In this document: positions 1 through 21,840 of the stretch, in pieces
Layout: each line of letters starts with the position of its first letter
Position numbering within the stretch: position 1 is the first letter of the stretch
Assembly: GCF_004014875.1 (NCBI RefSeq)
Contig: NZ_CP034929.1
Location: 1,612,001-1,676,000, forward strand
Length of the DNA: 64,000 nucleotides
From: Nocardioides yefusunii
Lineage (GTDB): Bacteria > Actinomycetota > Actinomycetes > Propionibacteriales > Nocardioidaceae
Reading direction: 5' to 3'
Position numbers and translations under genes: made by a program
The notes under the pieces: generated by a model
Database searches by the model: none
What the model was told of the DNA's origin: nothing
What the model saw: only the letters and a program-made list of their open reading frames with translations

Positions 1-1
1 C

Positions 2-439
2 AAGTTCGTCGCTCTGCGTGCGTTCTTCAAGGGTGCCTGGGCCGACGCCGACGCCAAGCGTCGCGTCTTCAAGGTGCTCTACGAGGACCAGGTCATCGTT
101 GACGGCATCCGTCCCGAGCTGCTGCCCTTCGACCTCGCCTCCGAGCTGCACGTGAAGTCGGACTACAACGCGGTGCTGTTCCGCCGTCGTCGTCAGGAGC
201 TCATCGACATGGGTTGGTCCGTCGAGGGCAACACCATCGTCGGTGAGGGCCCGGCCCGCGTCGAGGCCCGCGTCATTCCCTCCCCGGCTCGCAAGCTCGT
301 GCCCGAGCTGGCTTCGGCCTGGAACTTCAAGGAGGTGCGCAGCCGTCAGATCCTCGAGGGCCGCGCCCCCCAGATGATGACCACCGCCGAGCGCGAGGCC
401 ATCGACGCCGAGACCGCGGCGGCCGCCAACAAGAAGTGA
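2..439 (+). CDS. Rieske-type ring-hydroxylating oxygenase large subunit, C-terminal part
   Basis: The reading frame is open from the left edge and ends at the TGA before 440, so only the last 145 residues are present. The pattern 'EDQVIVDGIRPELLP' followed by a DLxxELHVKSD stretch and an RRRR helix is the usual ending of the catalytic domain of Rieske non-heme iron oxygenase alpha subunits. The [2Fe-2S] centre and the mononuclear iron ligands would lie outside the window. Such enzymes use NAD(P)H electrons delivered by a reductase to hydroxylate or open rings. It is the first visible gene of a co-directional set (650-4650). The substrate cannot be read from this part; aromatic, steroid and tetrapyrrole ring oxygenases all belong to the superfamily. 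Confidence 0.75.
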   Translation, partial: KFVALRAFFKGAWADADAKRRVFKVLYEDQVIVDGIRPELLPFDLASELHVKSDYNAVLFRRRRQELIDMGWSVEGNTIVGEGPARVEARVIPSPARKLVPELASAWNFKEVRSRQILEGRAPQMMTTAEREAIDAETAAAANKK

Positions 440-444
440 TCGTC

Positions 445-486
445 CGCCGCGTGCCGTGACCCCCGAGAAGGTCACGGCACGCGGCG
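445..486 (+). terminator. Intrinsic terminator-like hairpin after the Rieske gene
   Basis: Perfect 17-bp arms (445-461 and 470-486) flank an 8-base loop. There is no clear T-run. It may only attenuate, because the next genes are co-directional. Confidence 0.6.
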
Positions 487-649
487 CACCCGGACTGGGG
501 ACGCTCGTGCAGCGTTCCCGGTCCAGGACCCAGGCCGGACACCGACACCGGTGGCCGGCCTTCGTCGCTCTGCGCCCACACGTGCGCGAGCGGCACTCGG
601 GCGTGCGCCCGAACCATCCCCGCCACCACTGACACGAAGAGGTAGTCCC

Positions 650-1390
650 ATGACGCTTCCCGCTGATCTCTGCATCTCCACCCTCGACAAGATCGTCGCG
701 AACACCGGATCCACCGAGATCCTCGGCGCCGACGGCGGCCCGGTCGAGGTCCTGACCTCCGTCATGGGTCCCGACCCGGTCGGTTCGGTCCGCGTCTTCA
801 CCGGTGACAAGGTCGCCAAGATCGTCTACATCGGCGTCGTCGTCCCGCAGATCGGCCTGGACTCCCACATGGTCTTCGCCTTCATGCCGGAGAACTCCCC
901 GGTCCCGCACTACACCCTGGACTCGGTCCAGGCCGGCGGCCACCTCGCCTTCCACCTCGACCTGATCCAGCGCGTCGACGCCGGTACCCACATGGTCACC
1001 ACCGACTGGTCGCACACCCCGATCTCCGAGGCGTTCGAGAAGCTGACCTCGTCCGAGGGCCTCTCCAAGGCTGCCCTCGAGCCGCGCCAGCTCACCGTCA
1101 TGTCCTCCTGGATGGTCGCGAACCGCGCCACCGAGGAGGCCTTCGCAGCGCTCAACGAGCCCGTCAACGCCTACCTCGACCACTGGCTGACCCTGGTCAA
1201 CAACGAGATCCCCGCCGAGGTCGTCGCCGACGTCGCCGACACCGACCTCGCGGTGCGTGACGCCAAGAACCGCGCCCTGCTGTTCTCGCCCGAGGTCGAC
1301 AAGGTCTGGGCCCAGATGACCCGTCTGCTGGGCGAGGAGACCGCCGAGCGTCTCCGTCTGCACCTCGTCTCCAACGACCTCCCGGCATGA
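650..1390 (+). CDS. Bilin reductase / RCC reductase-superfamily protein
   Basis: This 246-residue protein appears to belong to the ferredoxin-dependent bilin reductase / red chlorophyll catabolite reductase fold. Seen: a VPHYTLDSV strand (85-93), FHLDLIQR (101-108), a YLDHWL helix (175-180), an RDxxNR motif (203-208) and SPEVD (213-217) before a final LG helix. The second half (WL..V, RD, LG) matches in order the protein at 17120-17938, so the two look like diverged paralogues. By my alignment from memory, D91 and D204 sit where plant RCCR has its substrate-contacting Glu and Asp. The ATG at 650 follows a GAAGAGG ribosome site; upstream in-frame codons lack one. Its stop overlaps the next gene (ATGA). 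A role in reducing a linear tetrapyrrole is inferred, not shown. Confidence 0.5.
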   Translation: MTLPADLCISTLDKIVANTGSTEILGADGGPVEVLTSVMGPDPVGSVRVFTGDKVAKIVYIGVVVPQIGLDSHMVFAFMPENSPVPHYTLDSVQAGGHLAFHLDLIQRVDAGTHMVTTDWSHTPISEAFEKLTSSEGLSKAALEPRQLTVMSSWMVANRATEEAFAALNEPVNAYLDHWLTLVNNEIPAEVVADVADTDLAVRDAKNRALLFSPEVDKVWAQMTRLLGEETAERLRLHLVSNDLPA

Positions 1391-2388
1391 GCCAGGACGT
1401 GAACGCCTCCGCGGAGGTCCCCGCCGTCGAGACCGCTGAGGTCGAGACGTCGGAGTGGCAGAAGCGGATCGAGGGGGAGTGGCACGGCATCCCCGCGCTG
1501 TTCGACGCCCAGGGCAACCACGTCGGTTTCGAGTACATCGCCCGCGCCTCCGAGGTCACCGCCGAGGGTGCGCGTTACTGGATGGACTCGAAGCTCTCGG
1601 GCGCGGGTCCGCTGCGCAACCGTTTCGAACTGGGCGCCCAGTTCGACTTCGGCGTCGTGGACTCCGACACCAACCGCGTCTACACCGGACCCGACTTCTA
1701 CGGGACCGGGCAGCCGTACGGCTTCTTCGTCGAGGCGAACTACTACTCGCCCGGTTGGCAGGCCGACCTGCGCACCTGGAACCAGGTGCTCGCCGACGGC
1801 GAGACCCAGGTGTACTCCTCGGTCCTGCACGACGGCTGGGCCGTCTGCGCCGTCTTCAACGGCATCTACAAGCGGACCACTGACCGCGAGACCAACCCCG
1901 AGACGCAGAAGTTCGTCGACGAGTGGCGTGCCCTGGAGACCGAACGTGGCTCGCGGCCCCAGGTGCTGCCCACCAAGGAGAAGGGCGCCTGGACCGGCAC
2001 CCTCTTCCTCGACAACGCCGACCAGACCTCGCCCACCGGCGCGGTCCACGTCACCATCGAGCACGAGCCCACCTCGCTCCGCTCGGCGCGTCACACCATC
2101 ACCTGGACCGGCGACCTGGAGCGGAAGTACACCTTCGACCGCTACCGCGACGGTGCCCGGACGATGTTCGAGGGCCCCGAGGTCTTCGGCAACGCGACCT
2201 CCTACGGCCGTGCGCTGTTCACCACCCAGCACATCATGGGTGCCGACGGCACCGGTGTGGAGAAGATCCGTGGCCGTGAGGTCCTGATCGACCCCACCAC
2301 CCGTGAGCTCGCGATCGTCTGGCAGCTGATGTCGGGCGAGACCACCACTCACTGGGTGCACGGCTCGCTGCAGTGGGAAGCCCGATGA
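1387..2388 (+). CDS. Two-fold lipocalin-like/beta-barrel protein of unknown function
   Basis: 333 residues, translationally coupled (ATGA) to the gene before and after it. I do not recognise a named family. It appears to have two related halves: each begins with a GxWxGxxxLxDxxG-like pattern (about 30-45 'GEWHGIPALFDAQG' and about 200-215 'GAWTGTLFLDNAD') followed by alternating aromatic and polar strands, suggesting two small beta-barrels. There is no signal peptide or membrane segment. A barrel that binds a hydrophobic ligand would fit a product-handling or isomerising role beside a bilin-reductase-like enzyme, but that is inference. The N-terminal 20 residues are Glu/Val-rich and probably disordered. 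Confidence 0.6.
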   Translation: MSQDVNASAEVPAVETAEVETSEWQKRIEGEWHGIPALFDAQGNHVGFEYIARASEVTAEGARYWMDSKLSGAGPLRNRFELGAQFDFGVVDSDTNRVYTGPDFYGTGQPYGFFVEANYYSPGWQADLRTWNQVLADGETQVYSSVLHDGWAVCAVFNGIYKRTTDRETNPETQKFVDEWRALETERGSRPQVLPTKEKGAWTGTLFLDNADQTSPTGAVHVTIEHEPTSLRSARHTITWTGDLERKYTFDRYRDGARTMFEGPEVFGNATSYGRALFTTQHIMGADGTGVEKIRGREVLIDPTTRELAIVWQLMSGETTTHWVHGSLQWEAR

Positions 2389-3206
2389 GCACCGCGATCG
2401 CCCAGAGCGGCGCCGACAAGGTTGTCGTCGTCACCGGCGGCGTCCGTGGCATCGGTCTCGGACTCGCGCGTGAGTTCCTCGCCCGCGGAGCCAAGGTCGT
2501 CGTCTGCGGCCGCTCCCAAGGTTCGGTCGACGCCGGTCTCGCTGCCCTCGCGGCAGGGGACCGGGCGACCGGTCTGGCCACCGACATCACCGACCGCGCC
2601 CAGGTGCAGGCACTGTGGGACCACGCCGTGGCGACCTTCGGTCGCGTCGACGTGTGGGTCAACAACGCTGGCATCTCCGCCCCCAAGAAGCCCATCGTCG
2701 ACATCGAGCAGTCGGTGATCGAGGACGTCCTGAAGGTCAACGTCGTGGGCACGCACAACGCCTGCGCCGTGGCCGCCAAGGGCATGGCCGCGCAGCCGAC
2801 CGGCGGATTCGTCTGGAACATGGAGGGCTTCGGCTCCGACGGACGGATCCAGGACGGCATCGGCGTCTACGGCACCTCCAAGTACGGAGTTCGCTACCTG
2901 ACGAAGGCGCTGGCCAAGGAGAACAAGGAGGGCGCCGTGAAGTTTGGTTTCCTCTCTCCCGGCATCGTCGTGACCGACCTGCTCGTCGGTGACTACGACG
3001 GCGACCCCGAGGGCTTCGAGAAGGCCAAGAAGATCTTCAACATCCTGGGCGACAAGGTCGAGACGGTCACCCCGTTCCTCGCTGAGAACGTCCTGGCCGC
3101 CACGAAGAACGGCGCTCGCGTCGAGTGGCTCACCAACGGCAAGGTGATGAAGCGCTTCCTGACCGCCGGCTTCACCAAGCGCGACCTCTTCACCGAGGCC
3201 AGCTGA
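2385..3206 (+). CDS. Short-chain dehydrogenase/reductase
   Basis: A 273-residue classical SDR using NAD(P). The Rossmann motif TGGVRGIG lies at 17-24, NNAG at 93-96, and the catalytic Y162-GTS-K166 with Ser151 upstream. The ATG at 2385 overlaps the previous stop as ATGA; the in-frame GTG 12 bases earlier lies inside the previous gene and has no better ribosome site. The next start overlaps its own stop, so it sits in the middle of a tightly coupled operon. It resembles the SDR at 21037-21840 (same GSDGR and YSATK/YGTSK neighbourhood). Likely oxidises or reduces a hydroxyl/keto group of the pathway substrate. Confidence 0.85.
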   Translation: MSTAIAQSGADKVVVVTGGVRGIGLGLAREFLARGAKVVVCGRSQGSVDAGLAALAAGDRATGLATDITDRAQVQALWDHAVATFGRVDVWVNNAGISAPKKPIVDIEQSVIEDVLKVNVVGTHNACAVAAKGMAAQPTGGFVWNMEGFGSDGRIQDGIGVYGTSKYGVRYLTKALAKENKEGAVKFGFLSPGIVVTDLLVGDYDGDPEGFEKAKKIFNILGDKVETVTPFLAENVLAATKNGARVEWLTNGKVMKRFLTAGFTKRDLFTEAS

Positions 3207-3901
3207 TGGCCGCCGGGACCGTGGACGTCTGCGCCGAGTACGGCGTGGCCCTGGCCGTGGAGGACTTCGTCCCCTGCATCCTGGCTGCCGCTGCCCTCGT
3301 CGTCCTCGTCCAGGCAGTGCGTGCGCGGGTTCCGCAGACGTTCCTGCCGGCGGCCGTCGGTGCGGTCCTGATCGCGGTCGGCGGTCTCTCCAAGGCGTCA
3401 TGGAAACTCCTGGTGGCCAGCGGCTGCTGGGAGTACCCGATCCTGGAGCAGGTGCTGTTCCCGTTCATCTCCTTCGGCTTCGCGGCCATGGCGTGGGCAA
3501 TCCTCAGTGCCTCCAAGGGGAACGTCGTCGTGGGGTGGCCCTTCGCGCTGATCCCCGTGGCGTGTTCGGTCGTCGCAGTCGTGGTGGGCAACATGTTGCC
3601 GCTCCTGGCGTCAGCAGCCATCGGTGCGACGTTCTTCGGCGTCACGGCAGCGACCGTGGCTTTCCGGGCCGGCAAGCGTTCGGTGGGTTGGGTGTTCGTG
3701 GTCTACGTGCTGGGCACCAACATCCTCCCGCCGCTGGGTGCGCAGCCCAACCAGACCGCTGCGCTCCAGTGGGCCGAGCAGCTCACCAACTCGTCCATCC
3801 AGTTGCTCTTCCTCCTGGGATGCCTCTGGCTGCGCGAGCACTTCAAGAACCAGCCCACCGAGAACCCGGTGGCAGAAGAGAAGGCAGGAGTTCCCGCATG
3901 A
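3206..3901 (+). CDS. Polytopic membrane protein of unknown function
   Basis: 231 residues with about six or seven hydrophobic segments (roughly 20-40, 45-65, 75-100, 105-130, 130-150, 160-180 and 195-215) and a charged, Glu/Lys-rich cytoplasmic tail. The ATG at 3206 shares one base with the SDR stop, and the gene ends in an ATGA overlap with the next, so it is part of the same operon. No transporter signature is recognised. It may be a carrier, or a membrane anchor for the pathway. Confidence 0.7.
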   Translation: MAAGTVDVCAEYGVALAVEDFVPCILAAAALVVLVQAVRARVPQTFLPAAVGAVLIAVGGLSKASWKLLVASGCWEYPILEQVLFPFISFGFAAMAWAILSASKGNVVVGWPFALIPVACSVVAVVVGNMLPLLASAAIGATFFGVTAATVAFRAGKRSVGWVFVVYVLGTNILPPLGAQPNQTAALQWAEQLTNSSIQLLFLLGCLWLREHFKNQPTENPVAEEKAGVPA

Positions 3902-4650
3902 GTGGAATCGACCGTCTGGGATGGCGCAAGAAGTTCGGCGTCATCGCCCCGAGCACGAACACCATCGTGCAGCCTGAGTTCGACATGATGCGCGTCCCGG
4001 GTGTCACCTCGCACTACGGCCGCATCTTCATCCCCGACGGTCGCATCGCGACCGACGAGGGCATGGAGAACCTCCTCGTGCAGATCCGCGCGAACATGGA
4101 CGACTGCGTGCGCAGCCTCATGACCATGCAGCCCGACTACATGGTCATGGGCATGAGCGCCGAGACCTTCTGGGACGGCGTCGAGGGCAACCGTCAGTTC
4201 GTCAAGCAGATCCAGGACCTCACCGGCGGTCTCGGCGTGGCCACCGGAGCCGAGGCGTGCGAGCGCGCGCTGAAGCTCTACGGTGCCAAGAAGATCGCGG
4301 TCGTGACCCCGTACACCCCCCTGGGTGACGCCAACGTCCGCAAGTTCTTCACCGAACTCGGCTTCGAGGTCGGCGCGATCAAGGGTCTCTGCGTCAACAG
4401 CGCGGTCGAGATCGCCCAGGTCACCGAGCAGCAGCTGCGTGAGGCACTGCAGGAAGTCGACGGCGACGACATCGACGCCATCGTCCAGTGCGGCACCAAC
4501 CTGTGCATGACCGAACTCGCCGACGAGGCCGAGCGTTGGCTCGGCAAGCCGGTCATCGCGATCAACGCCGCCACCTGGTGGATGGCGCTGCGTGAGAACG
4601 GCATCGAGGACAAGCTGCACGGTTACGGCAGCCTCCTGCGCGACCACTGA
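3898..4650 (+). CDS. Maleate isomerase / arylmalonate decarboxylase-superfamily protein
   Basis: 250 residues of the Asp/Glu racemase superfamily, maleate cis-trans isomerase branch. Seen: the N-terminal GVIAPSTNT motif (14-22), the second catalytic Cys198 in QCGTNL, and the closing KPVIAINAATWW block (217-228). Classical maleate isomerases use two cysteines. Here the first site reads MGMSAET (84-90) with no Cys, a one-cysteine arrangement also known from arylmalonate decarboxylase. The substrate is therefore uncertain. Maleate isomerase would convert maleate, an end product of maleimide breakdown, to fumarate. ATG overlaps the previous stop; it is the last gene of the operon, followed by a strong terminator. 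Confidence 0.7.
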   Translation: MSGIDRLGWRKKFGVIAPSTNTIVQPEFDMMRVPGVTSHYGRIFIPDGRIATDEGMENLLVQIRANMDDCVRSLMTMQPDYMVMGMSAETFWDGVEGNRQFVKQIQDLTGGLGVATGAEACERALKLYGAKKIAVVTPYTPLGDANVRKFFTELGFEVGAIKGLCVNSAVEIAQVTEQQLREALQEVDGDDIDAIVQCGTNLCMTELADEAERWLGKPVIAINAATWWMALRENGIEDKLHGYGSLLRDH

Positions 4651-5018: not shown

Positions 5019-5693
5019 TCAGGCGGGCTGCTTGAGTTCGGGGCGGCCTGCTTCGGCGGCGACGCGCTTGGTCAACTGGGTGCCGACGACGTAGCGCTCG
5101 GTGGAGCCCCAGCGTGGGTGACAGGTGATGATCGTCATCTGACGCTGCTTGGCCTTCTTGCCCGGGTATCCGGGGACGGGCTCGAGCAGGGACATCGCAG
5201 TGGGCGGCACGATCTGGGTCCAGGCGACGGTGTAGACGAGCCACTCGTCGTTGGTCTCCACCAGGATCTCGTCGCCGACCTCGATCTCCTCGACCTTCGC
5301 GAAGGGCTCGCCGTGCGTGGCGCGGTGGCCAGCGATCGCGAAGTTGCCCTTCTTGCCAGGCATGGCGGTGCCCTTGAAGTGTCCGGGGCCCTTCATGAGG
5401 TCCTCGTTCTCGGTGCCCTCGACGATGACCTGTTCCCAGTCGTCGCCGAAACGGGGGATGTGCATGATCGCGACCCCGTCGCCGTTGGACGGCTTCGCGG
5501 GCAGCTGGATCTTGCCGTTGCTGTCGGTGGTGCGGATCTCCGCGAGCAGGTCAGCCTGGACCGCCGCGTTCCGGTGACCGGTCCAGACCAGCAGGTAGAA
5601 GGCGAACAGCAGGAGTACAAAACCAGCGGTCAGCGCCAGTTCCGCAGCGAGGCGCACGGTGTTCGTGATGAGGTTGCGAAACGTTGTTGACAC
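5019..5693 (-). CDS. Class E sortase
   Basis: 224-residue membrane-bound transpeptidase that cleaves a C-terminal sorting motif and links surface proteins to peptidoglycan. One N-terminal membrane anchor (about 16-37) is followed by the sortase domain with catalytic His123 (AGHRATH), Cys191 (TIITC) and Arg200 (STERYVV). The GTG start at 5693 follows a TATATT box by 6 nt, so the message is probably leaderless. It is divergent from the surface protein at 5751. LPxTG-type substrates lie nearby at 13376 and 14029. Confidence 0.9.
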   Translation of the reverse strand: MSTTFRNLITNTVRLAAELALTAGFVLLLFAFYLLVWTGHRNAAVQADLLAEIRTTDSNGKIQLPAKPSNGDGVAIMHIPRFGDDWEQVIVEGTENEDLMKGPGHFKGTAMPGKKGNFAIAGHRATHGEPFAKVEEIEVGDEILVETNDEWLVYTVAWTQIVPPTAMSLLEPVPGYPGKKAKQRQMTIITCHPRWGSTERYVVGTQLTKRVAAEAGRPELKQPA

Positions 5694-5750: not shown

Positions 5751-7946
5751 GTGGGATCCAGGTCGAGGCTCTTCGCAGCAATGACTCTCGTCGTCATGCC
5801 TGTTGCGACGGGACTGCACGCCAGCCCGAGTTTCGCGGCTGAGGCCGTGCGGGCGATGGGAGCGTGCTGGGTCTACACCCCTGAAACCACGGGCATCGCC
5901 GAGGATGACCTGCTGGGTCAGCTCACCGCACCCGTGCAGTCCGACGGCATCGGAGGCGACGTGGCCACCGCGCCCGTGGCCTGGAGCCCGGACGCCGATG
6001 GCGCGGAGCTGCGCCTGGAGACCTCGGGCGGTACTGCTCGAGGATCCGAGCGCTCGATCTCCCTCGAGCTCGCCGACGGCCCCGTCCTGGACGCGACCAC
6101 GCGTCGCGAAGGCACTGCGCACGCCGTGCTGCGTCTGATCGCCCCCGGCGAGGACGTGGCTGCTGAGCTGACGCCGGAGGAACTCTCCGAGCGCATGCGC
6201 ATCGCGAGCACCGAGTTCGCCGTCGAGGCGGGAGAGCAGGCCGACGGTCTGGTCTTCACTGCCGAAGACGTGATCGACCTCGTCGACGAGGGTGAGTACC
6301 GCGTCGTCCTGCAGTCGGTGCACTTCGTCGTGACCGAGGAGACCGTTCCCGGGTCCGTCACCACGCTGCACTGGGCGTGCAACGCCCAGCAGGGCACTGA
6401 GCCCACCGCCTCGGCGGCGCCGGCCCCCGGCGGCACCGAGGTCGTGCCCGCGCTCAACCCCGCCGCGAGCCCCGAGCCCTTCGTCGGGGTCATGTCGGAG
6501 TTCGCGGTGCAGAACACCTCGCTGCTCCTCCTTGACGACGTCCGGGGCCAGGTCGGCACTGCGGCCGCCCGCGCCGGAGACGTGCTCGTGCTCAGTGCCA
6601 GCGGCATGGAGACGTCCTCCTCCTTCAACGTGGGCTTCGGGCCCGCCGGTGGTCCCTACGTCCTCGACAACATGGTCGTCACCTCCGACGAGGAGGGCGT
6701 CGTCGAGCGCTTCGAGGTCGCGGTTCCCCAGGGCGCCGTCGTGGGTCAGGGCGAGGTCACCCTGGTCAAGATCGGCACCCCCGAGGTGCCGAGTGCCCCC
6801 GCGGGTGTGCCGCTCTCGCTGCGCATCCTGGGGGCGCCGGTGCTGACCGCGACCGAGACCGTCGGCGACGAGCGTCTCGACGTGGTCGTGGCCGGTGTCG
6901 GGTTCGACCCGCTCACGCAGGTGCGAGTGCGCGGTCGTGCCGGCGAGGCTGCCGCCTCCGACAAGGCCGTCGAGGTCTGGACCGACGTCGACGGCGCTTT
7001 CACCACCGACTACGTGCTCACTGACCTCGACGCCACCGCCCTCCGGGCGCGCCAGACGCGTGAGGCCTCCTTCGGCGAGCTCACTGCGCGCGTCGAGCTG
7101 GCCAACGCGGTCCCGGGACCCAGCGGGTCCAAGCCTCCGGTCACGCCTCCGGCCGAGGTGCCCACTCCCATCACTCCGCCGGTGGCGGTGCCCCCGAGCG
7201 TGCCCGCGCCGAGTGTTCCCGCGCCGGTGGTCCCCGCCCCGATCGCCCCGATCGCCCCGACCGCTCCGCCGCTCAACATTCCGCTCCCGGAGACCGCGCC
7301 CATTGTCGAGGTCCCTGCTCCGGAGGTCCCTGACGCCATCGCCGTCGCCGAGCTGAAGCTCACCGAGCCCACGCTCGAGGGATCCGTCTCGATGGGTGAA
7401 CTCTTCGGCGGTTCCTCCGAGCGTCGGGTGGTGTTCGAGGTCGAGAACGTCGGTGGCGCCGCCGCCGACGACCCGGACGTGCTCCTGGGCATCGGCCGAA
7501 CGGCCGACGCCACTCCGAGCACGGTCGCCACCAGCCTCGGCACCATCGAGCCGGGCGCCCGCGTCGCAGTCGGCATCAACCTGGCCCTCCCGATGGCCTC
7601 CTTCGGCACCTACCAGGTGGTCGGTCAGGTCGGCGACGAGACCGCGACCTCCTTCAGTGTCCGTTGGGACACCTATCCGTGGGGTTTGTTCGCGGCCAAT
7701 GTGGCGGGCGTCGGCCTGCTGGTCTGGGGTGTGTCGCGTCGTCGCACCAAGGCTGCCCCGATCCCCGCGGGTCCGGAGACGGCAGAGGCCGGTGCCTCGG
7801 TGGTCGATCTCGATGCACTCGACAAGTGGTGGAAGGAGGGCAAGGTCGTCCACGCGGCGCCCGAAGTCCTTGAGGACAACGACTCCGTCGTCGACCTGGA
7901 TGCAGCAGATCGGTGGTGGGCGCGAAACAAGGGCAATGTGTCCTGA
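5751..7946 (+). CDS. Large exported surface protein with proline-rich stalk and C-terminal membrane anchor
   Basis: 731 residues. Start GTG 5751 is chosen because GGAGG lies 5 nt upstream and it gives a clean signal peptide ending SFAAEA (about residue 30); an in-frame ATG 54 bases earlier lacks both. A long beta-rich ectodomain follows, then a Pro/Val/Ala stalk (about 460-525), another domain, one transmembrane segment (about 640-660) and RRR. The cytoplasmic tail carries two copies of a VVDLDAxDxWW motif separated by about 30 residues. There is no LPxTG motif, so it is membrane-anchored rather than sorted. Function unknown; location between a sortase and an importer suggests a surface binding role. 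Confidence 0.7.
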   Translation: MGSRSRLFAAMTLVVMPVATGLHASPSFAAEAVRAMGACWVYTPETTGIAEDDLLGQLTAPVQSDGIGGDVATAPVAWSPDADGAELRLETSGGTARGSERSISLELADGPVLDATTRREGTAHAVLRLIAPGEDVAAELTPEELSERMRIASTEFAVEAGEQADGLVFTAEDVIDLVDEGEYRVVLQSVHFVVTEETVPGSVTTLHWACNAQQGTEPTASAAPAPGGTEVVPALNPAASPEPFVGVMSEFAVQNTSLLLLDDVRGQVGTAAARAGDVLVLSASGMETSSSFNVGFGPAGGPYVLDNMVVTSDEEGVVERFEVAVPQGAVVGQGEVTLVKIGTPEVPSAPAGVPLSLRILGAPVLTATETVGDERLDVVVAGVGFDPLTQVRVRGRAGEAAASDKAVEVWTDVDGAFTTDYVLTDLDATALRARQTREASFGELTARVELANAVPGPSGSKPPVTPPAEVPTPITPPVAVPPSVPAPSVPAPVVPAPIAPIAPTAPPLNIPLPETAPIVEVPAPEVPDAIAVAELKLTEPTLEGSVSMGELFGGSSERRVVFEVENVGGAAADDPDVLLGIGRTADATPSTVATSLGTIEPGARVAVGINLALPMASFGTYQVVGQVGDETATSFSVRWDTYPWGLFAANVAGVGLLVWGVSRRRTKAAPIPAGPETAEAGASVVDLDALDKWWKEGKVVHAAPEVLEDNDSVVDLDAADRWWARNKGNVS

Positions 7947-15497: not shown

Positions 15498-16175
15498 ATG
15501 TCCGTCAAGCGTGCTGCTGTCGCAACGACCCTGGGTCTTGCCGCCGCCTCCCTCGCCACCCAGGGGCTGGTGTCAGGTGCCGTTGCCGCCGACAGCCGTG
15601 GGGTGTCGGGTGAGGTCAGCCTGGACTGCCTGCTCCAGCCCTTCGTGGAGGGTTTCCGCTACGAGGGTCCGATGGCCGTCAAGGCATCTCGAGTGGGGGA
15701 CTCCTACGAACTCCTGGCCCAGATGCCCAGCATTCCGGGCATCGCCCCGGTGGCCATCGACGGAGGTCGCATGCGTGTCGTCCTCGAGGGTTCGGTGGGC
15801 AAGGAGCCGTTCACGCTCACCGGGACCCGCTCGGTGGACGCCGAGGCCTCGTCGCCGGTGCCGGTTCCTGATCTCGTCGGGACGATCCCGGCGATCGACG
15901 GCGACGTGGAACTGTCGAAGTTCACCTTCGAGTTCGACGAGATGATGGGTCTCACCATCGAAGCCGGCTGCGACCCGTGGAAGGCGACCGGGCTCGGTGA
16001 GTTGACTGCCGGCGCTGAGCCCGGTGCGGTGACGTCCACCGAGGAGGCCTCCGCCGACGTCATCACCGTCGACGACGAGGGCTCCGCGATGCCGCTGATC
16101 CTGGGTGGTGGCGCTGTCGTCCTGGCTCTCGGTGGCGTGGCTGCGTGGTTCGTCAGCCGTCGTCGTCCCGCCTGA
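15498..16175 (+). CDS. Single-domain paralogue of the 14029 surface protein, membrane-anchored
   Basis: 225 residues: signal peptide (to about 32), one DUF6801-like domain (about 38-165) and a transmembrane helix (about 198-218) ending SRRRPA. The domain shares VSLDCLLQPF, PGIAPVAIDGG, TFEFDEMM and the closing Cys with the second domain of the preceding protein, indicating local duplication. No LPxTG motif precedes the helix, so it should stay in the membrane instead of being sorted. ATG at 15498 follows GAGGAG. Function unknown. Confidence 0.75.
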   Translation: MSVKRAAVATTLGLAAASLATQGLVSGAVAADSRGVSGEVSLDCLLQPFVEGFRYEGPMAVKASRVGDSYELLAQMPSIPGIAPVAIDGGRMRVVLEGSVGKEPFTLTGTRSVDAEASSPVPVPDLVGTIPAIDGDVELSKFTFEFDEMMGLTIEAGCDPWKATGLGELTAGAEPGAVTSTEEASADVITVDDEGSAMPLILGGGAVVLALGGVAAWFVSRRRPA

Positions 16176-16259: not shown

Positions 16260-17123
16260 TCAGGCGTTCTTGAGCTCGTCGAGTGCGGGGTCGTACGACT
16301 TCGACGGGGTGAAGCCGGAGTCGATCAGCTTCTTGACCGAGATCGGCGACGTCGGTCCGGCGATCTCGCCGCGGTACTCGAGCGCGGGGAGGTCGTTGCG
16401 GAGCGAGATGGTGTCGAACAGCGTCGAGTTGGTCGGGGGGACCTCGTCGTGGGTGAGGTTGAAGACACCCTGCAGCTTGTTGACGATGGCGTGGACGGCA
16501 GCGTTCGCGGCGTCCTCGACCTGGAGGCGGTACAGCAGCGCGTCGCCCGAGAACGGCACGGAGCCGCCCAGGTACTGGTGCGCCATCTTGACCTTGTCCT
16601 CGATCGGCGGGTCACCCTCACCGAAGATGTCACCACAGCGGAGGACGGCCACACGCTCGCCCGCGGCGAGGTAGGTCTTCTCCATCAGGATGAAGTTGGC
16701 CGGGCTCGGGTCGTCCGAGTCGGTGACCGGGGCGTCCTCGGTGACGAGGTCGAGGTGGTTGGCGGCGTTGCCGTAGACCGACAGCGACGAGAGGCACACG
16801 ATGTGGGCGTCGCCGGGGGCGGAGACCACGTTCTCGGCGGTGCCGACGAGGATCTCGCGGTAGGTCTTCGCGCGACCCTCGGGGGTCATGGACCCCTGTG
16901 CCGAGGGGCCGGCGGTGACGATGACGGCGTCGGCGGCCGCGACGGCAGCGTGCACGCCGTCACGGTCGGAGCCCTTGAGCACGATCGCGTTGCCGAAGCG
17001 CTCGGCCAGGGGGGCGACCTTCGCCTCGGTGGTGGTGGTGACCGTGACCTCGTGACCGAGACCGATCAGGCGCTCGGCCGCGGCGGAGCCGACGAAACCG
17101 GCTCCGATGACCAGGACCTTCAT
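16260..17123 (-). CDS. NAD-dependent epimerase/dehydratase (extended SDR)-like protein
   Basis: 287 residues. N-terminal Rossmann motif GAGFVGS (7-13) and an SVYG block (about 125-129) typical of extended or atypical SDRs. The active-site Tyr/Lys pattern is not canonical (VYGNAAN), so it may be an atypical reductase or an NAD(P)-binding protein. Its start overlaps the stop of the RCCR-like gene, so both are translated from one minus-strand transcript initiated near 17945. That coupling suggests it acts on the product or substrate of the RCCR-like protein. Confidence 0.75.
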   Translation of the reverse strand: MKVLVIGAGFVGSAAAERLIGLGHEVTVTTTTEAKVAPLAERFGNAIVLKGSDRDGVHAAVAAADAVIVTAGPSAQGSMTPEGRAKTYREILVGTAENVVSAPGDAHIVCLSSLSVYGNAANHLDLVTEDAPVTDSDDPSPANFILMEKTYLAAGERVAVLRCGDIFGEGDPPIEDKVKMAHQYLGGSVPFSGDALLYRLQVEDAANAAVHAIVNKLQGVFNLTHDEVPPTNSTLFDTISLRNDLPALEYRGEIAGPTSPISVKKLIDSGFTPSKSYDPALDELKNA

Positions 17124-17938
17124 GCAAGTTCCTCCATCTGCTTGAAGCCGGCGCGGACTGCGACCAGCTCTTCGACCCTTGCGGCACCGAGGAACTTCTT
17201 CGAGAGTTCGTTCATCGGGTCGAGGGTGTATCCGTAGGTGCGGACCTTGTGGTCACGCTCTCGCAGGGCGGCACGCTCGGACGGGTCGGTGGCGACCGCG
17301 GTGCGGACGGCCTCCAACCACTTGTCGACGCGCGTGTTCACGACCTGACGCAGGGTGGCGACGACGTCCTCGGTCCGGTCGGCCACGTAGGAGTGGGCGA
17401 CGGGGGAGAGGAAGGCGCGCATGTAGGAGCCATGGGAGACCGACCACGTGAAGCGGTCGTCGCCACGCAGTGCGAGGTAGTCCTCGTTCAGCGGCTCGTA
17501 GTACTTCTCCAGGTAGTCCACCTCGGTCATGAGGTCGCGACGGGGGACCAGCTCGGAGTAGAAGAAGATGTTGGGGATGGTGCCGAACACGAGGATCAGG
17601 TGGGGCACGTCGATGTGCGGTCCCAGCCAGACCTGCAGGTTCATGTCGAGGATCGAGTTGGTGCGGTTGCCGATCCAGGAGTGGACGAGCCACTCCGCGC
17701 CGGCGTCGGGGTCACCGACGAAGGTGTTCATCGAGCCTTCGTAGGACTTGTCCTCGGTGGCCCAGTACTCCAGACCCTCGCTGGAGGGGTGTGCCTGGAC
17801 CGGGAGCTCGGCCACGATGCGTTCCTTGGCGTCGCTGAGGATCTCCCAGAACTGTGCCCACAACTCGGTGTTGTCGACGTCGGGGTTCTCCGCGAGGAAC
17901 TCGTGGATGGTCTTGGTCTGACTCACTTTCTCGGCCAT
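17120..17938 (-). CDS. Red chlorophyll catabolite reductase (RCCR)-like protein
   Basis: 272 residues. From memory of plant RCCR (ACD2), the same landmarks occur in the same order: HSWIG (86-90), VPHLILVFG (111-119), VPRRDLMTEVDYLEKYY (131-147), YMRAFLSPVA (172-181), a KWL helix (206-208), RERD (226-229), DP (240-241) and a final LGxxRVEELV helix. D229 falls at a conserved acidic position; the Glu of the plant active site appears replaced by Val117. Plant RCCR reduces a linear tetrapyrrole with ferredoxin electrons and has no cofactor of its own. The ATG at 17938 lies 7 nt after TACAAT, suggesting a leaderless message. The substrate here is unknown. Confidence 0.6.
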   Translation of the reverse strand: MAEKVSQTKTIHEFLAENPDVDNTELWAQFWEILSDAKERIVAELPVQAHPSSEGLEYWATEDKSYEGSMNTFVGDPDAGAEWLVHSWIGNRTNSILDMNLQVWLGPHIDVPHLILVFGTIPNIFFYSELVPRRDLMTEVDYLEKYYEPLNEDYLALRGDDRFTWSVSHGSYMRAFLSPVAHSYVADRTEDVVATLRQVVNTRVDKWLEAVRTAVATDPSERAALRERDHKVRTYGYTLDPMNELSKKFLGAARVEELVAVRAGFKQMEELA

Positions 17939-17983: not shown

Positions 17984-18319
17984 GTGATCGTCGTCATCTC
18001 GCAAGCCTGGACGAAGCCCGAAGAGGCCCATGTCCACGCCTATGTACAGCTCAATGAAGAGTTCGGTCAGTTCTTCCGTGACCACCCCGGGTTCCGAGGC
18101 CGGCAGTTGGTCCGCGGCACCGAGGACCCGACGCACTTCACGCACCTGCGGTGGTTCGACACGCTGGAGGATTACGAGGAGTGCACGCGTCAGCAGGGTT
18201 ACGTCGAGCACACGGTGAAGATGTACGAACACCTCGTGCCGTACGAGTCCTACCCCCGCGAGATCGTCGAGGTCGTGTTCGACGAGCGCCCGGCGCCGCA
18301 CACCGGTGACCCGGCGTGA
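17984..18319 (+). CDS. ABM-domain (antibiotic biosynthesis monooxygenase-like) protein
   Basis: 111 residues with the dimeric alpha/beta-barrel pattern: IVVISQAWTKPE first strand, an FFRDHPGFRGRQLVRG central strand and THFTHLRWFDTLEDYEE. Members act as cofactor-free monooxygenases, heme-degrading enzymes (IsdG type) or ligand-binding proteins. GTG 17984 follows GAAGGGGG. Its stop overlaps the hydrolase start (GTGA). Divergent from the RCCR-like gene, which points to shared regulation. IsdG-like heme opening is possible, but the key Asn/Trp/His set is not clear to me. Confidence 0.65.
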   Translation: MIVVISQAWTKPEEAHVHAYVQLNEEFGQFFRDHPGFRGRQLVRGTEDPTHFTHLRWFDTLEDYEECTRQQGYVEHTVKMYEHLVPYESYPREIVEVVFDERPAPHTGDPA

Positions 18320-19035
18320 AGCGTCCGTTCCTGCTGGTGCACGGTGCCTTCCGTGGTGGCTGGTCCTGGGCGCGGGTGCGACCCGGCCTGGTTGCGGCGG
18401 GCCACGACGTGCATGCGCCGTCGTTGCCCGGGTGCGGTGAGCGGTACATCGAAGGGGAGGCAATCCTTTCCCTCGATGTCTGGGTCGATGCCCTGGAGCG
18501 TCTCGTCGTGGCCGAGGACCTGCATGAGCTCGTGCTGGTGGGCCACAGCCAGGGCGGCATCGTGACCGCAGCGCTCGCGGCGCGTGTCCCGGAGCGGATC
18601 GCGGTCCTCGTGCACCTGGATGCAGCAGTCCTGGCTCGCGGGGAACGCGCCGTCGACCTCACAGGTATGGGCGGGCATCTGCCCCCGCGTGACTTCTGGG
18701 TGCCCGCGCGCCCCCTGGTGGCGGCCGCGGACCTGGACGAGGAGACCGCCGCGTGGGCCTCGGCGCGACTGACGCCCACGCCGATGGGACCTTCGCTCGA
18801 CGTCGTTCCCGACGTGCCCGAGGAGGTGGACGTACGCACCTGGTTCTGCTCGGGAACTCCGCAGGGATTCCCTTCGACGGTTTCGCGCCGGAGGATGGAC
18901 GAGGCTGGCTTGGCCTATGACGTGCTCGACTGCGGCCACGACGCACCGCTCGTGGCTCCCGACCGCGTGGTGGAGGCACTCCTGGCCGCTGCTGACCTTT
19001 CCGAGCACTCGGGTGCGCGGCCCGAATCCCACTAA
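18316..19035 (+). CDS. Alpha/beta hydrolase (methylesterase-like)
   Basis: 239 residues. HGAFRGGWSW oxyanion region (9-18), nucleophile Ser78 in GHSQGG (76-81) and the catalytic His208 in DCGHD. The compact layout, with an HGAxxGxWxW start and GHSxGG, is shared with plant methylesterase/hydroxynitrile-lyase-like enzymes and many bacterial esterases. It is translationally coupled to the ABM gene. In plants, members of this family demethylate chlorophyll catabolites; whether this one acts on a comparable ester is inference. Confidence 0.8.
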   Translation: MKRPFLLVHGAFRGGWSWARVRPGLVAAGHDVHAPSLPGCGERYIEGEAILSLDVWVDALERLVVAEDLHELVLVGHSQGGIVTAALAARVPERIAVLVHLDAAVLARGERAVDLTGMGGHLPPRDFWVPARPLVAAADLDEETAAWASARLTPTPMGPSLDVVPDVPEEVDVRTWFCSGTPQGFPSTVSRRRMDEAGLAYDVLDCGHDAPLVAPDRVVEALLAAADLSEHSGARPESH

Positions 19036-19045
19036 GGTTCCCTCC

Positions 19046-19765
19046 ATGCCCTCTGCACCTGAGACCGGTCCTGCGTACCGGGCGGTCGCTGACGCCCTGC
19101 GGTCCCAGATCCTTTCCGGGGACCTGAAGTCCGGCGACCGACTGCCCACTGAGTCTGAGCTCTGCGAGCTGCACTCGGTCTCGCGCAGCACTGTCCGTGA
19201 GGCATTGCGGGCCTTGGCCACCGAGCGCCTCCTGGTCACGCGCCGCGGCGTCGCGGGAGGTTCGTTCGTGGCCGCCCCCGGCCCGGAGGAGATCGCGGGG
19301 CTTGTCCAGTCGAGCCTCTCCCTGCTGAGTGACTCCGACTCCGTCTCGGTGCAGTCGCTGCTGGAGGTGCGCCTGATGCTCGAGGTGCCTGCCGCGGGGC
19401 TGGCTGCGGCACGGCGTCGTGACGCGGACCTCGTCTCGCTGGAGTCGCACCTGTTCGACCCGGTCGCGACCGACCTGGAGTCGATGTTCACTGACAATCG
19501 CGACTTCCATCTGGGGCTGTTGCGGGGGGCTGCGAACCCGGTGCTGGAGGCGGTCGCCGCGCCGATCTACGGAGTGGTCTATGAAAGATTCGTCCGCCGG
19601 GAGGCGCCCGTGGACTTCTGGCGCTCGGTCGACCATGACCATCGCGCGATCCTCGATCGGGTACGGGCTGGTGACGTGGGTGGCGCCGAGGAGGCGCAGC
19701 GCGCCCATCTGGTGGACCTGGGGCCGACGTACGAGCGGATCGACGCCGAACGGCAGAGGTCCTGA
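19046..19765 (+). CDS. GntR-family regulator, FCD (FadR) subgroup
   Basis: 239 residues. Winged helix-turn-helix at about 10-75 (LPTESELCELHSVSRSTVREAL), then an FCD ligand-binding domain with the metal-site pattern NRDFH (151-155), H199 and H221. Such proteins repress catabolic genes until a carboxylate-type effector binds. The ATG at 19046 is 7 nt after TAAGGT, suggesting a leaderless message; the longer upstream frame lies inside the hydrolase. It is the only obvious regulator within the RCCR-like gene set and the best candidate for its control. Confidence 0.9.
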   Translation: MPSAPETGPAYRAVADALRSQILSGDLKSGDRLPTESELCELHSVSRSTVREALRALATERLLVTRRGVAGGSFVAAPGPEEIAGLVQSSLSLLSDSDSVSVQSLLEVRLMLEVPAAGLAAARRRDADLVSLESHLFDPVATDLESMFTDNRDFHLGLLRGAANPVLEAVAAPIYGVVYERFVRREAPVDFWRSVDHDHRAILDRVRAGDVGGAEEAQRAHLVDLGPTYERIDAERQRS

Positions 19766-20105: not shown

Positions 20106-20123
20106 GCCAGTCGTCGTGACCCG

Positions 20124-20157: not shown

Positions 20158-20183
20158 TGGTGTACCCACCCACCGGAGGAACC

Positions 20184-20948
20184 GTGACTCACCTGCCCCG
20201 CGTCAACCATGTCGGCATCTCGGTCGCCGACCTCGACGCCGCCCGTACCTTCTGGATCGACGGGCTCGGCGCTCTCGAGCACGGCGCCTTTTCTTGGCCG
20301 GTCGGCACCACGCCTGCTGACGACTCCCTCGCGACCAGCGGTACCGCCGCCGACGTGGTGCTGCTGCGCACCGACGCGGCCTTCATGGAGCTCTTCGCGT
20401 TCTCCTCGCCGACACCGCAACGGCGTGACCCGCGTCGTCCCGGCGTGGTCTCCCTGGCCTGGGCGGTCGAGGACCTCGCACTCGCCCGGTCCCGGGCCCT
20501 GGCGCACGGCGCGAGCATGGGGGAGCAGGCGCACCACGTCAGATGCCCCGACGGAACCGACGTCCACCTGGTCCTGGCCGGCGAGGGGCCCACGGGTCTC
20601 GTCGCGGTGCAGGTGCAGGTGGAGGCCGCGGCAGAGTTCCCCTACGGCGACGTCGCCGGACCGGTCGTGCTCGACGTGGTGGGTGGGGCACTCGCCCCGG
20701 ACGCCACGGGCGGATCGAACGTCGACCTCGGCGTCAACCACATCTGCCTGGACGTCGACGACGCCCACGCGGCTCGCGCTGCCGGCCAGGTCGGGGGCCG
20801 GGTGCGGTGGCACCACGAGGTGACCGAGTCCAGCGGCGGGATCGCTGCGGTCTGCTACGGCACCACCCATGACGGTGTTCTGGTGGAACTGCTGGAGTCC
20901 CGCACCGAACAGGCGTTCTTCTCCCGGACCCGGCTCGGCTGCCCCTGA
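20184..20948 (+). CDS. Two-domain VOC-superfamily (glyoxalase/extradiol dioxygenase fold) protein
   Basis: 254 residues with two vicinal-oxygen-chelate halves. The first starts VNHVGISVADLDAARTFW; the second has VNHICLDVDD and ends GVLVELLE. His in VNH of each half and Glu near each end are the usual metal ligands. Families with this layout include ring-cleaving dioxygenases, glyoxalases and epimerases. GTG 20184 follows GGAGG. Its place next to the SDR/RCCR-like set suggests a step in the same pathway, but the reaction cannot be assigned. Confidence 0.75.
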   Translation: MTHLPRVNHVGISVADLDAARTFWIDGLGALEHGAFSWPVGTTPADDSLATSGTAADVVLLRTDAAFMELFAFSSPTPQRRDPRRPGVVSLAWAVEDLALARSRALAHGASMGEQAHHVRCPDGTDVHLVLAGEGPTGLVAVQVQVEAAAEFPYGDVAGPVVLDVVGGALAPDATGGSNVDLGVNHICLDVDDAHAARAAGQVGGRVRWHHEVTESSGGIAAVCYGTTHDGVLVELLESRTEQAFFSRTRLGCP

Positions 20949-20963
20949 GTCCCCTGAAACGCC

Positions 20964-21022
20964 ACGCACCAGTCAGAAGTGCTGCCGAAACCGAGGTTTC
21001 GGAGCACTTCTGACTGGTGCGT
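20964..21022. terminator. Long perfect inverted repeat between convergent genes
   Basis: 20-bp arms without mismatch (20964-20983 with 21003-21022), and an inner CCGAAAC/GTTTCGG helix. A bidirectional terminator of unusual length. Confidence 0.9.
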
Positions 21023-21036
21023 GAGAGGTCTGAGGC

Positions 21037-21840
21037 TCAGAGGCCGTAGCGAGCCATGACGTCGTTCTTCTTCGCGTAGCCCGGCGTCATGAAGCGCGTC
21101 GCGATCCGTCGGTTGGTGAGCCAGGAGATCTCCGAACCCGTCTTCGTGGTGGTCATGACCTCACTCACCAGGTACGGCGCCACGTCGTCGACGTGGTCGG
21201 AGAGGTAGTTCAGCGCCTTGCGCTGGGAGGAGACCTGCTCGGGGGCACGCTGGGCCTCGCGCAGCCAGCCGTCGGAGATCAGGATGCCGGGGCGGATCTG
21301 ACCCACCAGGACCGGCGTCTCCTTGGACTCCTTGACCAGTGCACGCGTCAGCATGTCGAGACCGCGCTTGGTGGCGGAGTAGACGCCCATGCCCGGCCGC
21401 AGGCGTCCGTCACTGCCGCCTCCGAGGACGTTGAAGAGCTTGCCCGAGCCCTGGGCGGTCATGCCGCGCAGGGCGACCTGGGAGCCGAAGATGGTGCCGA
21501 GCATGTTGGTGCGCACCATGGCGTGCACGTCCGCGGGCTTGGTGTCCACGACCTTCTCGGTGGTGTGGGCGACGCCAGCGTTGTTGATCCACACGTCGAC
21601 GCTGCCGTGCTGGGCGACGGCGTGGTCCCACAGAGCCTGGACGGCGTCGACGTCGGAGACGTCGGTGGCGAGGCCGGTGACGTGGCCGTTGCCCGGGGCG
21701 GCGACCAGTTCGGCCACCGCTGCGTCGACGGACTCCGCGCTGCGGCCCGAGACGACGACGTTGTATCCGTGGCGGCGGAACTCGCGGGCCATGGCGTGGC
21801 CGATTCCCTTGGTGCTTCCGGTGATGACTGCCGTGCTCAA
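21037..21840 (-). CDS. Short-chain dehydrogenase/reductase
   Basis: 267-residue classical SDR: TGSTKGIG nucleotide motif near the start, NNAG, and a YSATK catalytic motif. Start TTG at 21840 is chosen because AGGAGG lies 5 nt upstream and the protein then begins STAVITGS, as family members do; an in-frame ATG at 21888 lacks a ribosome site. Upstream on the minus strand lies TATATT within an AT-rich patch (about 21866-21875). It resembles the SDR at 2385 (QALWDHAVA, VDVWVNNAG, GSDGR), so the two ends of the island carry related reductases. Confidence 0.85.
   Translation of the reverse strand: MSTAVITGSTKGIGHAMAREFRRHGYNVVVSGRSAESVDAAVAELVAAPGNGHVTGLATDVSDVDAVQALWDHAVAQHGSVDVWINNAGVAHTTEKVVDTKPADVHAMVRTNMLGTIFGSQVALRGMTAQGSGKLFNVLGGGSDGRLRPGMGVYSATKRGLDMLTRALVKESKETPVLVGQIRPGILISDGWLREAQRAPEQVSSQRKALNYLSDHVDDVAPYLVSEVMTTTKTGSEISWLTNRRIATRFMTPGYAKKNDVMARYGL

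Follow-up and report, generated by a model that had tools for sequence, protein, structure and literature searches.

Chlorophyll in plants is broken down through the PAO/phyllobilin pathway, with PAO, RCCR, MES16 and TIC55 among its enzymes. In bacteria, NicF and NicE form the maleamate/maleate branch of nicotinate and nicotine degradation, and the gut bilirubin reductase BilR is a member of the Old Yellow Enzyme family. BilV is a reductase of the same family according to a passage of PMC13252198, and the product of BilR is given as urobilinogen in passages of PMC10769871. The chlorophyll degraded yearly amounts to about a billion tons (passages of PMC13203533 and PMC12930011), and the former also describes phyllobilins as accumulating in plants without further breakdown. 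According to the sections on bilin reductases in PMC10151467, heme oxygenase, V4R and globin-type proteins are typical products of pre-1 and pre-3 clusters. The same paper assigns sequences of Ca. Schekmanbacteria to the RCCR outgroup, and the existence of bacterial relatives of RCCR is thus already published. The excerpts of open-licence PMC literature that we searched, including those of PMC10151467, PMC6755814, PMC11879140, PMC10769871 and PMC13203533, contain no bacterial RCCR catabolic cluster.

Our analysis suggests that a gene cluster in Nocardioides yefusunii is probably catabolic, importing an open-chain (or Rieske-opened) bilin- or phyllobilin-type tetrapyrrole and dismantling it for carbon and nitrogen. 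Family and fold, gene order, conservation and co-occurrence were computed, and we infer the substrate. Chlorophyll-derived phyllobilins are one candidate.

Gene content of the locus

The window is a stretch of 64,000 nucleotides of contig NZ_CP034929.1. All the gene types that a first-pass annotation had listed are located within its positions 1-21840, where the SDRs, the ABM and VOC proteins, the maleate-isomerase-like enzyme, the Liv importer, the GntR/FCD regulator and the surface proteins were each confirmed (families by Pfam). Gene starts are those of revised gene calls, and the Pfam scan of some proteins used a slightly earlier start.

G000:C1:1609381-1610199 (1.8 kb upstream of the window): third RCCR relative, RCCR-B
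1-439, plus strand: C-terminal third only of a VanA-type Rieske oxygenase that starts ~0.8 kb upstream of the window (full gene G000:C1:1611219-1612439, 406 aa)
650-1390, plus: RCCR-C, reductase of RCCR/FDBR fold (hhalign and structure model), with aspartates at or near both bilin-reductase pair positions
1387-2388, plus: LIPO, tandem beta-barrel of DUF3598/BFA1 fold (fold search), candidate tetrapyrrole carrier; its start overlaps the RCCR-C end by 4 bases
2385-3206, plus: SDR1, short-chain dehydrogenase (Pfam)
3206-3901, plus: MEM, membrane protein matching no Pfam family, with relatives in 8/36 cluster loci
3898-4650, plus: MaiA, member of the maleate isomerase / arylmalonate decarboxylase superfamily (Pfam); closest solved relatives maleate isomerase 2xed (E 1.7e-12) and 4fq5 (E 4.9e-10)
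5019-5657, minus: sortase (PF04203, E 7.2e-32)
5781-7946, plus: large secreted proline-rich protein with, by reading, a membrane-spanning stretch near the C-terminus; no Pfam family; relatives at 30-35% in Nocardioides loci
8055-9455, plus: putative lipoprotein substrate-binding protein without a Pfam match (E<=1) or an NCBIfam match (E<=0.01), called LivK for its position; it accompanies LivF/LivHMG in 11 loci
9445-10182, plus: LivF-type ATPase (Walker A and signature motif read directly from the sequence), found in 12 loci
10179-13094, plus: fused LivH-LivM-LivG importer (permease-permease-ATPase), 971 aa (PF02653 in two stretches, PF00005)
13376-14029, plus: neocarzinostatin-family LPXTG surface protein (PF00960 E 1.3e-19, PF00746)
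14029-15363, plus: secreted protein, LPXTG-like, in which an unnamed domain occurs twice (by reading); no Pfam family; accompanies the neocarzinostatin-family gene in Nocardioidaceae
15498-16175, plus: another secreted protein that seems, by reading, to share this unnamed domain
16260-17123, minus: EPIM, NAD-dependent epimerase/dehydratase-like (Pfam), adjoining RCCR-A in Nocardioidaceae and near it in the gammaproteobacterial loci L020 and L047
17120-17938, minus: RCCR-A, PF06405 RCC_reductase (Pfam)
17984-18319, plus: ABM-family protein (PF03992)
18316-19035, plus: ABH2, alpha/beta hydrolase (Pfam; SABP2 1xkl, E 1.8e-13)
19046-19765, plus: GntR/FCD regulator (Pfam)
20184-20948, plus: VOC (Glyoxalase) protein (Pfam), with a relative in one locus only (L007, N. 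gilvus)
21037-21840, minus: SDR2 (Pfam)

The cluster extends ~20 kb upstream of the window with catabolic genes, which include a maleamate-amidase-like gene, a flavin reductase and acyl-CoA-dehydrogenase-like pair and aldehyde dehydrogenases.

RCCR-related reductases and the barrel protein

Two RCCR-like genes had been proposed and both are real, since 17120-17938 belongs to PF06405 and 650-1390 has the same fold, but the total is three, with one upstream. RCCR-A and RCCR-B match PF06405 with 55.0 bits (E 8.8e-15) and 46.8 bits, respectively, at a Pfam cut-off of 24.9. The RCCR-A profile finds AtRCCR (3agb) with E 1.4e-17, and RCCR-B has a weak match to Fe_bilin_red (24.1 bits, cut-off 31). 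RCCR-C matches no Pfam family at E<=1 and stays below the RCCR profile, so only A and B are filed in PF06405; NCBIfam holds no family for RCCR-C or LIPO at E<=0.01. PDB searches with the RCCR-C sequence and profile returned nothing related, and the likeness surfaced through the structure model only. The AlphaFold model (pLDDT 95) has the RCCR/FDBR fold; its best Foldseek match is plant RCCR, bilin reductases are matched as well, and the relatives of known activity in the fold list are tetrapyrrole enzymes. Against the RCCR profile, hhalign gives a probability of 96.3 and E 1.7e-9. RCCR-C is a homologue of RCCR despite the Pfam miss.

The acid pair of plant RCCR, which we take to be Glu154 and Asp291, was mapped via the alignment. 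The loop Asp is kept in RCCR-A (40/40) and RCCR-B (38/38). The strand acid, Glu in plant RCCR and Asp in bilin reductases, is replaced by V/I in all 40 RCCR-A and by A in all 38 RCCR-B sequences, so these two families may do different chemistry and plant-like RCC activity is not claimed for them. Asp110 of RCCR-A was considered as a substitute acid and dropped, being D in just 16/40. In RCCR-C, D91 (placed by motif and position within strand 87-95) and D217 (placed by hand between helices, where hhalign gives a different register) are each constant in 33/33. A first alignment puts Ser213 opposite the loop Asp, and aligning on the following helix puts D217 there. The catalytic Asp pair of the bilin reductase GtPEBB is Asp-99/Asp-219 in a passage of PMC6755814. 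These residue counts exclude the RCCR-A of L077 (wrong frame) and the RCCR-C of L059 (masked bases), and the RCCR-C alignment (A7) comprises the window, 20 of the 33 loci rows and 10 further proteins.

In a tree of 66 rows, a 100/100 branch separates RCCR-A from all other rows, and another does so for RCCR-C. Only these two are taken as clades: RCCR-B comes out paraphyletic to A, and the tree has a meeting point of several long branches. The tree omits near-duplicates chosen by hand (20 RCCR-A loci, 10 RCCR-B/C loci), the L077 RCCR-A, and rows that were short or had stops or masked bases. Some Nocardioides and Mumia proteins are already named RCC reductase in databases; viral contigs gave no RCCR-A relative.

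The fold of LIPO is that of tandem barrels as in 2o62 and 5yvf, which places it with DUF3598/BFA1. Below these two entries the fold list runs from omptins (13.7) through nitrobindins (~13) to phycobilin lyases (10.9). Since outer-membrane barrels outrank the other two, the lower-ranked likeness is unspecific. The alignment used for the model and searches (A6) holds the window and 26 of 29 loci rows, omitting L055, L059 and L077. A search of 149 genomes gave 10 LIPO positives, all among the 18 RCCR-bearing genomes described below, and the draw may not hold the other 8. Likeness in fold is no proof that the substrate is the same.

Conservation, plant parallel and alternative substrates

Of 396 genomes sampled from the phylum, 3 have PF06405, the present one among them, so two PF06405 genes and a third relative within ~20 kb of this genome are more than chance. 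Within the family, 18 of 198 genomes have PF06405 (two copies each), and these same 18, with the present one among them, are also the genomes with the RCCR-C family. A Rieske gene is found in 31 of 35 RCCR-B loci and RCCR-C in 29 (some loci are short), and Liv importer genes lie beside RCCR-A in 11 of 14 loci (L007-L020), all 11 in Nocardioidaceae. Co-conservation of the RCCR genes with the Rieske and importer genes had been set beforehand as a test of the tetrapyrrole proposal, and these counts favour it. As the loci were found through RCCR, the counts measure RCCR neighbours.

Both Actinomycetota and Pseudomonadota keep RCCR-B, RCCR-C and the DUF3598-fold barrel protein as a set, which RCCR-A joins in Nocardioidaceae and two proteobacterial loci (L047, L077). 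RCCR-C is present in 14 of the 15 genomes behind cluster loci, some copies lying elsewhere than in the locus. Some gammaproteobacterial RCCR-A genes are solitary, their neighbours being a two-component system and a ferredoxin. The neighbours of RCCR in Actinomycetota, Pseudomonadota and partly Chloroflexota include Rieske, DUF3598/BFA1 barrel, C-N hydrolase, isomerase, hydratase and C-C lyase genes; the Chloroflexota loci lack both LIPO and the VanA-type Rieske gene. We counted 36 cluster loci, 34 from one search and two short ones (L005, L006) from the 396-genome survey, leaving L080-L087 uncounted. Families in loci were assigned by BLASTP above 60 bits, which is loose for large families (SDR, ALDH, CitE, CaiB). 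C-N hydrolases occur in 29/36 loci, MaiA in 11/36 and the isochorismatase type in 5/36. The accessory C-N and C-C enzymes vary by lineage, and hence the lower pathway is not one fixed set. SDR1 is found in 21/36 cluster loci, but of 24 control loci, which are gammaproteobacterial and so differ in taxon as well as context, 8 have SDR1-like and 7 have ALDH2-like genes; both gene types therefore carry little weight.

The cluster had been likened to the plant trio of PAO, RCCR and methylesterase. A Rieske oxygenase, RCCRs and an MES-like esterase are indeed present, but the full Rieske protein is VanA-type (PF00355 E 2.3e-24; PF19112 VanA_C E 2e-22), and the catalytic residues of RCCR-A and RCCR-B differ. 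The PaO domain PF08417 was found in 0/25 RCCR-bearing genomes, while the control search did match in two known genomes, those of Synechococcus elongatus and Caulobacter vibrioides, in one case above the cut-off. Staygreen (Mg-dechelatase) was likewise found in 0/25, the same search being silent in the controls too. This set includes L024, where RCCR-A alone was found. The closest solved structures to ABH2 belong to the plant MES/hydroxynitrile lyase family (SABP2 E 1.8e-13; 'probable pheophorbidase' 5hk8 E 5e-9), with matches spanning mainly residues 2-115 of 239; its gene occurs in 11 loci, all Nocardioidaceae. The proposal of a locus for tetrapyrrole uptake and breakdown stands as the best reading, its tetrapyrrole chemistry predicted from fold, context and logic, with a plant parallel looser than proposed.

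Another N-heterocycle (pyrrole, indole, pyridine alkaloid, prodiginine-like tripyrrole, corrin/porphyrin) might be degraded instead, with RCCR-fold proteins recruited to reduce it. This would fit the absence from RCCR-A and RCCR-B of the strand acid of characterised relatives, and nicotine/nicotinate pathways likewise combine C-N hydrolases with enzymes like maleate isomerase and maleamate amidase. We consider it unlikely, as the known-activity relatives of RCCR-C act on tetrapyrroles, the RCCR-B, RCCR-C and barrel set is kept across two phyla with RCCR-A joining it as above, and HMGL alone among six cluster enzymes passes a curated NCBIfam cut-off.

An aromatic or steroid island, with the RCCR-like genes as passengers or with their products acting on its aromatic substrate too, is an improbable reading. 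Such islands often contain Rieske, SDR, HMGL, CaiB and ligase genes, and the flavin reductase and acyl-CoA-dehydrogenase-like proteins distantly resemble HsaB/HsaA and HpaC/HpaH, but with scores far under cut-off (HsaA 57 of 450, HsaB 114 of 230). An N-free ring would not need the C-N hydrolases seen in most cluster loci, and the association of RCCR-B with Rieske genes and the presence of RCCR-C in nearly all genomes behind the loci indicate that the RCCRs are not passengers.

Endogenous, non-nutritional tetrapyrrole modification (heme/siroheme turnover, bilin pigment or signal synthesis) could suit the lone gammaproteobacterial RCCR-A genes and recalls the pre-PcyA reductases with which heterotrophic bacteria make bilins (passages of PMC10151467), but is very improbable given the importer, cell-wall-anchored surface proteins, CoA-activating and C-C cleaving enzymes and GntR/IclR regulators of the locus, with no heme oxygenase, globin or V4R among the genes identified by other searches.

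Proposed pathway and comparison with known systems

The gene set suits reduction of a linear tetrapyrrole followed by conversion of alkylated rings to maleates and small acids, in an order of activities that we infer. Surface proteins and the Liv importer would bring the substrate in; to our knowledge, this branched-chain-type importer class is not known for tetrapyrroles. The VanA-type Rieske oxygenase and the three RCCRs, presumably ferredoxin-dependent, might then oxidise and reduce it at different positions, with LIPO as carrier. Splitting at the bridges, which would release single rings of alkylated pyrrolinone or maleimide type, could fall to the aldehyde dehydrogenases and the flavin reductase/acyl-CoA-dehydrogenase-like pair, the latter perhaps a two-component monooxygenase. 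C-N hydrolases (nitrilase-type, isochorismatase-type) would open the imide or lactam, and the maleate-isomerase-like enzyme would convert dialkyl maleate to its fumarate form. Pyruvate and short acyl groups may then arise through hydratases, CoA transferase/ligase and C-C lyases (HMGL here, also CitE and isocitrate-lyase type in relatives). The earlier idea that maleimide-derived products are finished here is strengthened by the maleamate-amidase-like gene upstream and by hydratases and malate-type lyases in relatives.

If this is true, soil and water bacteria probably feed on open-chain pigments, e.g. chlorophyll or heme breakdown products, the RCCR/bilin-reductase superfamily gains bacterial families with new active sites, and a carrier role is suggested for DUF3598-type barrels. 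The conserved gene set in cultured Nocardioides, Mumia, Streptosporangium and Nocardia makes the fate of phyllobilins testable. We see an even chance that this is the first recognised bacterial system fully mineralising linear tetrapyrroles (phyllobilins of leaf litter and food, bile pigments, phycobilins), one in which new RCCR/FDBR reductases and a Rieske oxygenase are linked with opening of the imide and cleavage of dialkyl maleates, present in at least two phyla and in part in a third, and a missing sink for the yearly turnover of chlorophyll.

The present loci encode catabolic enzymes instead of the proteins typical of the pre-1 and pre-3 bilin reductase clusters. Like BilR/BilV, the cluster is proposed to carry out bacterial reduction of a linear tetrapyrrole, but ring-opening genes, predicted here, do not appear in the passages of PMC10769871 on the BilR system. 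With the NicF/NicE branch it shares maleamate-amidase-like and maleate-isomerase-like genes, and differs by its RCCRs and by hydratase/lyase types that would suit alkylated maleates. It resembles the ferredoxin-dependent bilin reductases in the fold of the RCCR-C model, in the weak Fe_bilin_red match of RCCR-B and possibly in the Asp pair, strand and loop Asp of RCCR-C being constant in 33/33 each, with the loop Asp placed by hand. With the plant PAO/phyllobilin pathway it has in common RCCR-family reductases, a Rieske oxygenase near RCCR-B and an MES/hydroxynitrile-lyase-like esterase, whereas its Rieske protein is VanA-type without the PaO domain and its RCCR families are divergent, with other active-site residues. 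Plants accumulate phyllobilins (passages of PMC13203533), whereas this cluster would continue to ring hydrolysis.

Extent and layout of the gene cluster

The catabolic island that the first-pass annotation placed at 1..21840 of the window is real and extends beyond that span, with the catabolic genes continuing upstream of the window (contig positions 1612001-1676000) in the single 3.32 Mb contig of Nocardioides yefusunii. Twelve co-directional genes form a run that begins upstream of the window and ends inside it with the gene of a maleate-isomerase-like protein (MaiA). The genes of this run located in our analysis are as follows, with contig coordinates except where the window is named.

From 1603624, upstream of the window: FlvR-HMGL (flavin reductase, HMG-CoA-lyase type), first of the run
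After FlvR-HMGL, upstream of the window: an acyl-CoA-dehydrogenase-like gene and two aldehyde dehydrogenases
1609381-1610199, just upstream of the window: RCCR-B, a relative of plant red chlorophyll catabolite reductase (RCCR)
Between RCCR-B and the Rieske gene: ABH1, alpha/beta hydrolase
1611219-1612439: Rieske oxygenase gene
Window 650-1390, + strand: RCCR-C, a second RCCR relative, followed inside the window by LIPO (DUF3598/BFA1-fold tandem barrel protein), SDR1 (short-chain dehydrogenase), MEM (membrane protein) and MaiA, the last five genes of the run, with end-to-end overlaps of 1-4 bases

Farther upstream of the run are a nitrilase-type hydrolase in two stretches, an isochorismatase-type hydrolase, CaiB, an HMG-CoA-lyase-like gene, an acyl-CoA ligase, and GntR and IclR regulators. 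Downstream of MaiA are a sortase, surface proteins, a fused Liv importer (LivH, LivM and LivG as one 971-aa protein, window 10179-13094), a neocarzinostatin-family protein, and the gene pairs RCCR-A/EPIM (a third RCCR relative with an epimerase/dehydratase-like protein) and ABM/ABH2 (the latter an esterase). We also observed an MPAB/rubber-oxygenase (Lcp) family protein with TLEAP repeats at its C-terminal end (window 21988-22962), and a stretch at 56001-62000 with a G+C content of 0.59-0.64, below the 0.66-0.72 elsewhere in the window, where by reading the ORF near 57660 is transposase-like and that near 61907 tail-collar-protein-like.

Three families related to RCCR

RCCR-A (window 17120-17938, - strand) scores above the PF06405 (RCC_reductase) cut-off, as does RCCR-B in the profile search. 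The nearest named relative of RCCR-A, from N. gilvus, is 84% identical to it, and a profile built from 14 sequences finds the RCCR of Arabidopsis with an E of 1.4e-17. RCCR-C has no Pfam match and is related by profile and model: its profile finds RCCR-A with an hhalign E of 1.7e-9 (1.3e-6 in the genome search), and its AlphaFold model (pLDDT 95.4) matches RCCR, bilin reductases and two chloroplast FtsHi-complex chains, with coproporphyrinogen oxidase lower and all else separated by a clear gap.

According to PMC6755814, bilin reductases have two essential aspartates, Asp-99 and Asp-219 in GtPEBB. In our profile alignment the loop Asp is present in RCCR-A (40/40) and RCCR-B (38/38), and the strand acid is replaced by V/I or A in every member of both. 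In RCCR-C the strand position is occupied by Asp (33/33), and the loop contains one invariant Asp (33/33, its alignment register being approximate). RCCR-A, RCCR-B and RCCR-C are hence separate families, other than plant-type RCCRs.

Conservation across bacteria

We scanned GTDB species genomes, which gave 73 loci, and then compared the neighbour genes. A core of the nitrilase-type hydrolase, RCCR-B, Rieske, RCCR-C, LIPO, ABH1 and SDR1 was found, complete or partial, in Nocardioides, Nocardia, Nonomuraea, Streptosporangium, many Acidimicrobiia, one Rhodospirillaceae MAG and gammaproteobacteria. Among the 36 cluster loci, i.e. those with RCCR-B or RCCR-C, some of them short, Rieske is found in 32, RCCR-C in 30, LIPO in 29 and the nitrilase type in 25, against none of any of the four in the 24 gammaproteobacterial control loci with RCCR-A alone. 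In the Chloroflexota loci RCCR-B is accompanied by the hydrolases, MaiA and a lyase, and the neighbour comparison found no VanA-type Rieske gene and no LIPO there.

With the host genome counted, PF06405, RCCR-C and LIPO each occur in the same three of 396 phylum genomes, and PF06405 and RCCR-C in the same 18 of 198 family genomes. Of 15 genomes taken from those behind the loci, 14 have RCCR-C, including the two Chloroflexota genomes where it lies outside the locus; the search for it found none in the Nevskiaceae genome (L067), the one exception.

RCCR-A is frequently separate from the cluster in gammaproteobacteria (L021-L043, L050). By reading, it is followed there by an apparent response regulator and histidine kinase (each in 16 of the 27 loci compared) and an apparent [2Fe-2S] ferredoxin (13/27), and the stand-alone gene possibly has a tetrapyrrole-linked sensing role. 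Two small Actinomycetota MAGs (1.4-1.7 Mb; G598 and G608) have five RCCR-C-family matches each, with two RCCR-B genes in the locus of the former (L053) and one in that of the latter (L060); one is labelled Bifidobacterium breve, a label that looks wrong. The Acidimicrobiia clusters (L054 14061-17207 and equivalents) encode three more conserved proteins with, by reading, a LIPO-like opening motif and no Pfam name, and also a DUF3891 protein (identified in the L044 relative); these extra proteins occur in 13-15 of the 36 cluster loci.

Candidate pathway and substrate

The likeness to plant chlorophyll breakdown proposed in the first-pass annotation holds in part. The Rieske gene is present but its protein falls outside the pheophorbide a oxygenase family, and hence a step that opens a macrocycle is possible without being implied. 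The closest family to the esterase is that of the plant MES/hydroxynitrile-lyase proteins, and the methyl ester of chlorophyll catabolites would suit such an enzyme, but it is seen only in Nocardioidaceae loci and hence we do not use it to favour chlorophyll over heme as the source.

MaiA is closest to maleate isomerases and arylmalonate decarboxylases. For the isochorismatase-type hydrolase the closest proteins are N-carbamoylsarcosine amidohydrolase and further entries that we take to be maleamate amidases. Relatives have other enzymes that follow the same pathway logic: L044 encodes an aconitase pair plus an amidohydrolase, and isocitrate-lyase/PEP-mutase-type lyases adjoin MaiA in L020, L053 and L060. 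CitE-type lyases, MmgE/PrpD, a cyclase-type hydrolase and hydantoinase B were also seen in relatives, and PrpD-type genes are present in 9 and CitE-type in 7 of the 14 loci L007-L020. A C-N hydrolase is found in 29/36 cluster loci versus 0/24 control loci, and a C-C lyase in 29/36 versus 4/24. Alkylated maleimides or pyrrolinones are oxidation products of bilin rings, and this set of enzymes is what we would expect if such compounds were opened, isomerised, hydrated and cleaved. The steroid or aromatic pathway, suggested earlier as an alternative, would start from a nitrogen-free ring, which would have no need for C-N hydrolases.

The best reading of the cluster, and a reasonably probable one, is the catabolism of bilin-type linear tetrapyrroles, for which we infer the substrate identity, the order of the steps and every activity. 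Those parts with known relatives are members of known families; should a tetrapyrrole prove to be the growth substrate, the complete system would be without a counterpart in the literature we found.
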